Shown piece by piece: positions 33 through 453 of a stretch of 7,763 nucleotides of DNA. The stretch is from Bacteroidia bacterium (GTDB taxonomy: Bacteria > Bacteroidota > Bacteroidia > Flavobacteriales > NORP286). Every line of letters begins with the position of its first letter. Within the stretch, counting starts at the first letter, position 1. The DNA is taken from contig JAESTI010000338.1 in NCBI GenBank assembly GCA_016763665.1, positions 1 through 7,763 on the forward strand, in the 5' to 3' direction. Made by a program: the position numbers and the translations under genes. The notes beneath the pieces were generated by a model. The model did no database searches. It had not been told where the DNA came from and saw only the letters and a list, made by a program, of their open reading frames with translations.

Positions 33-59
33 GTGGGCGATGAGGGATTCGAACCCCCG
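33..59. repeat. 27-base direct repeat of tRNA 3' end (partner 378-404)
   Basis: Bases 33-59 and 378-404 are identical and correspond to the T arm, acceptor 3' strand, discriminator and one further base of the tRNA-Val gene. The copies are 345 bases apart and enclose the GIY-YIG gene and the tRNA-Val terminator. An intact tRNA on one side and a repeated 3' end on the other is the layout left by elements that integrate at tRNA 3' ends, although no integrase is present here. Confidence 0.85.
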
Positions 60-63
60 CCCC

Positions 64-83
64 TCCCGATTTATAAATCGGGA
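64..83. repeat. Perfect 20-base palindrome in the anticodon-arm position
   Basis: TCCCGATTTA is followed directly by its reverse complement. The palindrome occupies the anticodon-arm position of the tRNA 3' remnant and also contains the last codons and the TAA stop (73-71, minus) of the GIY-YIG gene. A related stem (TTCCGAT/ATCGGAA, loop of four) is found at 481-498 in the same position of the other tRNA remnant. No T-run follows on either strand, so it is not a typical terminator. Confidence 0.85.
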
Positions 84-337
84 TGCTCTGACTTATCTGA
101 TTCGATAAGTTTTTCAATTTTTATTCTGTTTTTCCAACCTTTTATTTCTCTTTCTCTTTTAGATGCGTCATTTTTAGACTCGAATATCTCTTGATACATG
201 ATTTTCCAATCATTTGCCTTACCAGTAAATCCTTTGTGATTGGAATTGTGTTTTCTCAATCTTTCGAAGAGATTGGAGGTATGTCCTATATAGAACTTGT
301 TAATAATTTCGGAAAAGAGAATGTAAACGAAATGCAT
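71..337 (-). CDS. Small GIY-YIG (URI-type) nuclease-domain protein
   Basis: An 88-residue, single-domain GIY-YIG protein. The first half-motif is VYI (residues 4-6) and the second is FYIGHT (15-20). The expected catalytic Arg is R26 in ERLRKHN, the active-site tyrosines are Y5 and Y16, and the metal-binding Glu is probably E62 in [10 protein letters not shown]. All key residues appear intact, so it could be an active endonuclease; its substrate is not known. Short solo proteins of this URI/UPF0213-like type are common in Bacteroidota. The ATG (337) lies only four bases past the T-rich end of the tRNA-Val terminator and has no Shine-Dalgarno site. The last six residues, SEHPDL, and the stop codon are encoded by tRNA-derived sequence, so the gene is physically fused to a tRNA fragment. 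I infer a selfish or mobile role from the flanking tRNA repeats; a repair role cannot be excluded. Confidence 0.9.
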
Positions 338-341
338 AGGA

Positions 342-371
342 AATAAAAAAGCCTCACATATTTGAGGCTTT
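342..371 (-). terminator. Rho-independent terminator after tRNA-Val
   Basis: On the minus strand a nine-base stem (AAAGCCTCA / TGAGGCTTT; 371-363 with 356-348) with a six-base loop is followed by a T-rich tract (TTTTTTATTT within 350-341). It starts eight bases past the tRNA-Val 3' end, the right place to terminate the tRNA transcript. The GIY-YIG start codon follows almost at once, so that gene must rely on read-through or on a promoter overlapping the terminator. Confidence 0.8.
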
Positions 372-378
372 AAAAAAG

Positions 379-453
379 TGGGCGATGAGGGATTCGAACC
401 CCCGACCCTCTGCTTGTAAGGCAGATGCTCTGAACCAACTGAGCTAATCGCCC
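379..453 (-). tRNA. tRNA-Val (anticodon UAC)
   Basis: A complete cloverleaf can be read on the minus strand. The acceptor strands GGGCGAT (453-447) and ATCGCCC (386-380) pair perfectly and are followed by discriminator A at 379. The D arm contains AGTTGGTTCAGAGC. The anticodon arm is TCTGC-CTTACAA-GCAGA, with UAC as bases 34 to 36, which reads GUA valine codons. The T arm contains GGTTCGAATCC within GGGGG/CCCTC pairing. No CCA is encoded (the next bases are CTT), so the tail must be added by CCA-adding enzyme. Length is 75 bases. It is the only intact tRNA of the three tRNA-like segments here, and it is followed by its own terminator. Confidence 0.95.

Follow-up and report, generated by a model that had tools for sequence, protein, structure and literature searches.

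A small GIY-YIG nuclease gene between intact and palindrome-scarred tRNA copies in Bacteroidota: a candidate minimal homing-type unit at tRNA genes

The window analyzed here, a 7,763-nt stretch of a Bacteroidia genome (contig JAESTI010000338.1), carries near its start a compact unit in which an intact tRNA-Val gene is followed, on the same strand, by a terminator, a GIY-YIG nuclease gene and a second copy of tRNA-Val sequence. This order, together with a 27-base repeat of the tRNA 3' end (33-59 and 378-404, offset 345), had been described in an initial annotation and was confirmed by ARAGORN, Rfam, Pfam and a repeat search; the exact repeat is enclosed in a longer direct repeat (30-65 and 375-410, 36 nt, 94%, offset 345). 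The second copy had been taken for a bare 27-base 3' end; the repeat itself held, but the copy spans the D arm through to the 3' end (93-33) and is scarred, and a half-copy lies upstream of the intact tRNA as well. The locus is organized as follows.

453-378, minus strand: intact tRNA-Val gene (anticodon TAC), hereafter T1, called by ARAGORN and by Rfam (RF00005, 75.1 bits)
371-348, minus strand: terminator-like hairpin and T-run between T1 and the nuclease gene (-12.1 kcal/mol, z -4.29)
337-71, minus strand: GIY-YIG nuclease open reading frame (ORF) of 88 amino acids, catalytic domain only (Pfam PF01541)
93-33, minus strand: downstream scarred tRNA-Val copy (hp-B), with a D-arm remnant, palindrome, conserved T arm and acceptor 3' strand
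83-64, no strand: 20-nt palindrome in place of the anticodon arm of the downstream copy
526-470, minus strand: upstream scarred half-copy (A-hp), a tRNA-Val 5' half plus palindrome, T arm eroded
481-498, no strand: palindrome of the upstream half-copy
40-580: block matching a NORP286 contig (L001) but for one base at 65, a recently moved or converted tract

The same hp-B and A-hp blocks were seen in the close relative L001 (L and G numbers are our handles for stretches and genomes). The insert measures about 340-380 bp, and the GIY-YIG gene is its annotated protein; as the initial annotation had noted, this is the only protein and there is no integrase, since no other ORF of the unit has integrase size. 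T1 is uninterrupted, and the Rfam scan of window positions 1-1200 listed no intron family. The nuclease reading frame terminates within the downstream scarred copy, and the C-terminus of the protein therefore reads SEHPDL.

The 88-residue protein matched PF01541 with an E value of 3.7e-16 and 59.6 bits, against a curated cut-off of 22.6. Residues Y5, Y16, G18, R26, H30 and E62, among others, were invariant in 36 relatives, and from work on I-TevI we take these to be the catalytic ones. An AlphaFold2 model (mean pLDDT 81) found its best fold neighbor in the UPF0213 protein BH0048 (1zg2), followed by Slx1 and, lower, the catalytic domain of I-TevI, all with E values of 1e-3 and worse; the sequence search also pointed to UPF0213 and Slx1. 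The small UPF0213 GIY-YIG proteins, with 1zg2 as best PDB relative, resemble the 88-residue protein in size and fold. A SEHP-like stretch after residue 60 was observed in 49 of the 120 best protein matches.

The flanks of the shared block are 80-91% identical between the window and NORP286, a metagenome-assembled genome (MAG). At synonymous sites, the two genomes showed 0 differences at 47 sites in the GIY-YIG gene and 188 at 516 sites in the neighboring ORF (p 3.8e-9). A unit that differs by a single base beside so diverged a gene indicates that the unit was recently moved or converted.

We addressed the recurrence of the unit with a profile built from the 36 relatives, which yielded 79 loci in genome records (the best 80 of 239). 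The record titles name Bacteroidota except for three MAGs labeled Bifidobacterium or Limnohabitans (L015, L026, and L039), labels that we took for mis-binning. A measurable GIY-YIG row was obtained at 78 loci, the split frame of L065 giving none. At 60 of the 78, a tRNA lay on the same strand 26-89 nt upstream of the GIY-YIG row (median 44 nt), comprising 51 Val-TAC, seven Arg-TCT, one Met and one Val-AAC; in L051 and L052, which are among the 60, the called tRNA is a scarred copy that ARAGORN still accepts. The 3' half of the locus's own tRNA was present behind the gene in 52 of these 60 loci. With the distance widened to 700 nt, a tRNA was found at 68 of the 78 loci, and four of the 10 loci without one have less than 150 nt of upstream DNA. 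More than one GIY-YIG row occurred at 21 of the 78 loci, in one case (L021) owing to an unrelated gene.

The association was not confined to tRNA-Val. In 40 further GIY-YIG stretches from 19 genomes with these loci, mainly stronger hits outside the Val-type clusters, a tRNA lay upstream within 120 nt in 21 and within 250 nt in 22; these 22 were Met (8), Ala (3), Val, Leu and Asp (2 each), and Lys, Phe, Asn, Pro-GGG and Pro-TGG (one each). The four other GIY-YIG genes of MAG NORP286 (L146-L149) had no tRNA neighbor. GIY-YIG matches were also present in 18 genomes of a phylum sample of 31 (28 of them new), from which 51 stretches were taken, covering the 28 new genomes and G078 and all but one of the hits outside G001 and G013. 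Among the 47 rows of this sample with at least 150 nt of upstream DNA, 13 rows from seven genomes had a tRNA within 120 nt, newly adding Ser, and 11 of these 13 had a 3'-half copy. Taken over all rows with a tRNA at most 120 nt upstream, the 3' half of the own tRNA was found downstream (score at least 17) in 78 of 92, whereas a random 3' half of a tRNA of another isotype was found in 5 of 92, which indicates that the tRNA 3' repeat is not due to chance. Two other GIY-YIG clades served as a within-family control: the Bacteroidota rows that we took for UPF0213-like, which formed a separate branch with a support of 99 in a quick tree with few columns and without a named UPF0213 reference, had, unlike the nuclease of the unit, a tRNA neighbor in 0 of 24 rows, and a second clade had one in 0 of 12.

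On a tree of the GIY-YIG rows, tRNA identity was clustered, with 38 changes compared with a shuffled mean of 60.4 and none of 200 shuffles as low. The tree was built from every third Val or unlabeled locus and all non-Val loci of L001-L079, and from the best row per locus (two for L201) of L110-L149 and L186-L236; each label was the tRNA within 250 nt upstream, with those of L126 and L129 set by hand from the downstream tRNA. In these two stretches, the GIY-YIG gene lies directly upstream of an intact tRNA (Ala-GGC and Arg-ACG, respectively), and in L129 a palindrome-scarred 3' half stands behind the tRNA. The Val-type clade includes switches to Arg and Met tRNAs, and in such units (L022, L033, and L068) the scarred copy derives from the new tRNA; thus, the unit seems to have changed its tRNA gene more than once.

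These observations bear on the main alternative of the initial annotation, in which tRNA genes were duplicated in tandem and a nuclease gene was inserted passively afterwards, to be kept by recombination between the repeats. Tandem tRNA genes do exist at the Flavobacterium loci L032, L161 and L163, and 3' repeats permit gain and loss by recombination. However, the same insertion with the same anatomy would have been needed repeatedly behind the tRNAs of about eleven amino acids, and neither the palindromes nor the recent sharing of units would be explained; we therefore regard a simple duplication as quite improbable. Nor is the gene fixed at one ancestral locus without other tRNA-linked copies: GIY-YIG genes lie beside other tRNAs in other genomes of the phylum.

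The scars in the tRNA copies showed a regular structure. In copies downstream of the gene, the palindrome was perfect or near-perfect and stood at a fixed place. Among the 56 Val rows that passed our filter, the copy left the tRNA at nt 28 in 45 and resumed it at nt 46 (39 rows) or 45 (9 rows), which makes the swapped segment precisely the anticodon arm. The measurable Arg-TCT, Ala, Leu, Lys and Pro-TGG units, together with the Met unit L022, which carries a Val-type nuclease, left the tRNA at nt 25-29 and resumed it at nt 43-46. The six rows of the Met-type clade, three of which have an identical protein, left at nt 36-38 and resumed at nt 47-49 with a different stem (TCCGC...); this scar was shared by Met tRNAs of the initiator-like and the elongator-like kind, with no clear left end in L128. 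One genome has three copies encoding an identical protein (L116, L117, and L118), each on a contig of its own and each behind an initiator-like Met tRNA gene. Scars in the T arm were observed in three Asp units, one Asn unit and one Phe unit, and a scar in the D arm in one Pro-GGG unit. L121, in which a terminator hairpin had been picked, and L037, in which the tRNA label belonged to the scarred copy, were left out of these measurements. Scar position thus partly follows the lineage of the GIY-YIG protein. The exceptions were L189, an Asp unit scarred from nt 50 to 59 that branches beside Ala and Lys units scarred from nt 26-29 to 43-45, and the Asp/Asn units L124 and L206, which are scarred elsewhere.

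Which half of the tRNA survived depended on the side of T1. With the TCCGA-type palindrome pattern, all 35 copies upstream of T1 (22 loci) were closer to T1 in their 5' half, and 67 of the 77 downstream copies (51 loci) were closer in their 3' half, with nine reversed and one tie; the median scaled scores were 0.50 for the 5' half of downstream copies and 0.25 for the 3' half of upstream copies. The missing half would be the one whose recombination with T1 carries the palindrome into the working tRNA. We also considered a composite insertion, in which a tRNA was split by a cassette bringing its own tRNA. It fits the asymmetry of the half-copies, yet in the window the upstream 5' half and the downstream 3' half pair badly as judged by eye, and the printed Flavobacterium locus-A units have no upstream copies, so this candidate was rejected.

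Scarred arrays without a gene were found as well, namely the copies upstream of the gene in L051, L156, and L237-L239; the latter three are the palindrome arrays of one genome and consist of scarred tRNA-Ala, -Asp and -Pro copies, and the list of GIY-YIG hits had no entry in these stretches, which were searched no further. In L152 (2472-2560) and L156 (2255-2310), a second, inverted palindrome breaks the T arm of scarred copies, which indicates that scars can be added repeatedly.

Because the palindrome preserves a hairpin at the former anticodon arm, and because some scarred copies (L066, L010, and L051) are long enough for ARAGORN still to call them as tRNAs, we considered a system acting on RNA, in which the nuclease cuts tRNA and the scarred copy serves as a decoy or regulator. 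The tRNA-like RNA is, however, not conserved, its 5' half being weak downstream and its 3' half weak upstream, and a terminator separates the tRNA from the gene in the printed loci; such a system appears very improbable.

The pattern TCCCGAN{3,7}TCGGGA occurred 1-111 times per genome in 12 genomes, compared with 0-13 times for the control CTCCGAN{3,7}TCGGAG. Three genomes with GIY-YIG units had a single match each, although the pattern misses loops longer than 7 nt, such as those in G002's own scars; the idea that the unit depends on widely dispersed palindromes was rejected on this ground, wide dispersal not being needed. Palindromes in dispersed repeats were seen in L242, L248, and L243-L246, where the fetched stretch has no tRNA. 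In L241 (600-860, genome G015), two palindromes of the TCCCGA/TCGGGA type lie inside a sequence that by eye resembles a cobalamin riboswitch, as though the swap had also affected hairpins in a different structured RNA.

To compare occupied and empty sites, we used the genus Flavobacterium, in which 149 of 150 genomes gave a match to a 1.7-kb probe taken around a unit, many in the tRNA region only. At one orthologous tRNA-Val locus (locus A), anchored by a left flank of 78-100% identity, 27 rows were compared (28 minus the distant L070): eight were occupied (six distinct genomes), 11 were empty, three were footprints (L153, L154, and L156) and five were of other states. Occupancy required at least four changes on the flank tree. 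In empty sites, the tRNA passes straight into its native terminator. In L152 and L032, which are occupied, and in L159, where only part of the left flank matches, a different terminator stands behind the tRNA, then come the gene and the scarred copy, and the native terminator is last; the junction between the two states falls exactly at the tRNA 3' end. The terminator behind the tRNA in these Flavobacterium sites, equivalent to the one at 371-348 in the window, is part of the unit, and the native one was displaced downstream. Two of the closest pairs differ in state: L032, with the unit in the second of two tandem tRNA-Val genes, compared with L163, which like its neighbor L161 has both tandem tRNAs empty; and L153, a footprint without the gene, compared with the empty L162. 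Relatives with and without the unit, and an exact junction at the tRNA 3' end, had been named in the initial annotation as a way to judge mobility, and both were found, at this Flavobacterium locus rather than at the window's own.

A repeat of the tRNA 3' end with its junction at the end of the tRNA is the classical layout of integrase islands, whose insert is flanked by a direct repeat of this kind. The unit shares that layout, as its T arm and acceptor 3' strand are repeated and its junction lies at the tRNA 3' end; this leads to an alternative in which a tyrosine recombinase encoded elsewhere mobilizes a non-autonomous insert in trans, with the tRNA 3' halves as attL and attR and the GIY-YIG gene as cargo. 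The right flanks at locus A differ widely from species to species, much like those of an integration hot spot, and would agree with this. The constant presence of the GIY-YIG gene does not argue against a cargo role, as the units were found by means of that gene. Unlike integrase islands, however, the unit has no integrase, and its roughly 340-380 bp leave no room for one; furthermore, its second tRNA copy is scarred in one arm, and mobilization in trans does not account for the arm-specific palindrome, the 5'-half copies on the opposite side or the nuclease lineages tied to particular tRNAs. We consider this alternative improbable. In L072, compared with L071 and L077, the right flanks are unrelated from the end of the scarred tRNA copy, beyond L072:3321, which suggests that insertions of other kinds also favor this locus.

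Recent sharing was also observed in Flavobacterium. The GIY-YIG genes of L072 and L077 differed at 0 of 43 synonymous sites and their adjacent genes at 72 of 257 (p 3.6e-6); for L072 and L071, the values were 1 of 43 and 63 of 257 (p 4e-4), and L152 showed a similar trend (14 of 43 compared with 159 of 257, p 4e-4). This sharing is compatible with homing, in which an element-free allele would be cut and the unit copied in by break repair. The dN/dS ratio of the GIY-YIG gene had a median of 0.07 and a maximum of 0.43 (27 of 28 Flavobacterium pairs, L062 and L166 left out); the gene is under purifying selection and, overall, is not decaying.

Purifying selection could also reflect a benefit to the host, in that a domesticated nuclease, acting as the phage endonuclease SegB does, might cause tRNA genes to be amplified in tandem or repaired. 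Tandem arrangements, of tRNA-Val genes and of whole units, are indeed common, as the 21 loci with more than one GIY-YIG row (L021 aside) illustrate, and amplification of a tRNA segment driven by SegB has been reported (PMC13096335). However, the patchy presence in close relatives and the signs of decay (the three footprints, the split frame of L065 and the broken copies of L110) fit a selfish gene better, and many of the extra tRNA copies are scarred and hence no working tRNAs. We consider a host-beneficial amplifier unlikely.

The anatomy of the unit, its recurrence at many tRNA genes, its presence or absence at orthologous sites, its recent sharing and the purifying selection on its gene led us to a different proposal: the unit is, with somewhat better than even probability, a minimal, chromosomal, free-standing homing-type element for which the tRNA gene supplies both the address and the homology arms. 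In an allele that lacks the element, the nuclease would cut the tRNA gene at one arm, the anticodon arm in the Val/Arg type. The break would then be repaired from an element-bearing copy, the 5' half of the broken tRNA pairing with T1, the presumed target gene and left homology arm, and its 3' half with the scarred copy, so that the terminator, the nuclease gene and the scarred copy would be copied in. The host would retain a working T1 with the terminator of the unit, while its original 3' half and native terminator would be shifted downstream. The palindrome in the targeted arm would make the scarred copy both uncuttable and useless as a conversion template. Homing by break repair would explain the repeat, the displaced terminator, the tandem units, the recently shared block and the lineages specific to particular tRNAs, and no rival explains the whole pattern better. 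Thus, the homing-like spread of a unit of about 345 bases that the initial annotation had envisaged is largely supported by the recurrence, presence or absence, and recent sharing of the unit, whereas its picture of bare repeats was not borne out.

Several observations weigh against this proposal. The scarred copy has lost the targeted arm, but T1 retains it, so that, in contrast to a classical homing site, no protection of the carrier allele is apparent. Scarred copies made of a new tRNA (L022, L033, and L068) are not predicted by copying of a Val arm without later conversion, and in some genomes such palindromes are also found apart from tRNAs. Beyond its catalytic fold, the protein lacks any part that would bind DNA, which leaves its specificity unexplained. 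The 3' halves are direct repeats, so the exact empty sites could be clean losses by recombination between them, and the sites alone give no direction; direction is better supported by the apparent age of the units as judged from sequence divergence. Here too, L031 and L032, two of the five Flavobacterium comparisons, had a gene that was not significantly more similar than the flank (p 0.32 and 0.74). NORP286 is a metagenome assembly, as the window probably is, and only one side of their identical block is visible because the L001 contig ends at window position 40; the block may be an assembly chimera. The records of L071, L072 and L077 are named as strains or isolates and are therefore free of that weakness. 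Finally, 57 pattern hits in viral contigs yielded no confirmed relative, and none was found in phage records or plasmids.

Beyond the single unit, we tentatively propose a broader model, which seems possible and falls short of probable: a phylum-wide nuclease family, each lineage of which might be specialized for a given arm in a single tRNA gene or a few of them, would cut that arm to spread and immunize its own tRNA copy by swapping in the cognate palindrome. The bare GIY-YIG domain would find its site by the tRNA arm itself, perhaps as an extruded DNA hairpin, and gene-less scarred copies around the tRNA would be by-products. In this model, tRNA genes would offer a common place to land for units that may be the smallest known to home.

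REP sequences with their RAYT genes likewise comprise small palindromes linked to a nuclease gene, a Y1 transposase, and form gene-less arrays; the unit differs in having a GIY-YIG nuclease instead and in carrying its palindromes inside tRNA copies. The free-standing endonucleases of phage T4 include SegB, which lies between tRNA-Arg and tRNA-Ile (PMC2988022) and drives amplification of a tRNA-Tyr segment (PMC13096335). SegB makes DNA breaks at tRNA-containing sequence, with recombination-driven inheritance and tandem amplification of tRNA segments (PMC2988022, PMC13096335), and thus SegB of T4/T6 shares with the unit a GIY-YIG nuclease in a tRNA region. In contrast to the phage-borne SegB, the units reside in bacterial chromosomes, encode about 80-90 amino acids, form many lineages tied to tRNAs and carry palindrome-scarred copies. 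SegB is also a larger protein with a DNA-binding part.

A second parallel is provided by the mobile ORFs (mORFs) of fungal mitochondria, which replace the 3' end of a host gene (Allomyces atp6; Glomus atp6, atp9, cox2 and nad3), the Glomus atp9 mORF belonging to the GIY-YIG family (PMC3630166). Common to both systems are an endonuclease ORF after a duplicated host 3' end and a native end displaced downstream, which here is the native terminator behind the scarred copy in L152, L159 and L032. The mORFs, however, sit in protein-coding mitochondrial genes and bring a foreign, diverged 3' end, whereas the 3' halves here are mostly near-identical within loci. The palindrome swap is a feature of the unit and not of the mORF account, in which the word hairpin does not occur (PMC3630166). 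The main text of a 2006 GIY-YIG survey mentions neither Bacteroidetes nor UPF0213 (PMC1564403). Within the open-licence PMC literature (titles, abstract openings and passages, with subscription papers and preprints outside this scope), we found no description of the arrangement of tRNA, GIY-YIG gene and scarred copy.

If the proposal of a homing-type unit is true, bacterial chromosomes harbor a parasite that needs about 350 bp and one domain of 85-90 residues, makes use of essential tRNA genes without depriving the host of a working copy, and has evolved parallel lineages for many isoacceptors. The series of lineages is suited to asking how a bare GIY-YIG domain gains site specificity. An origin from tRNA sequence would account for the odd SEHPD-type C-termini of GIY-YIG proteins, and scarring may be the origin of some truncated tRNA genes seen in Bacteroidota.

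Elsewhere in the window, at 5766-7763, lies a gene that by eye appears propeller-like, with repeats of the IWFGT type. Its listed frame stops at 6218, and similar repeats continue past this position in another frame, which points to a frameshift or an assembly error.
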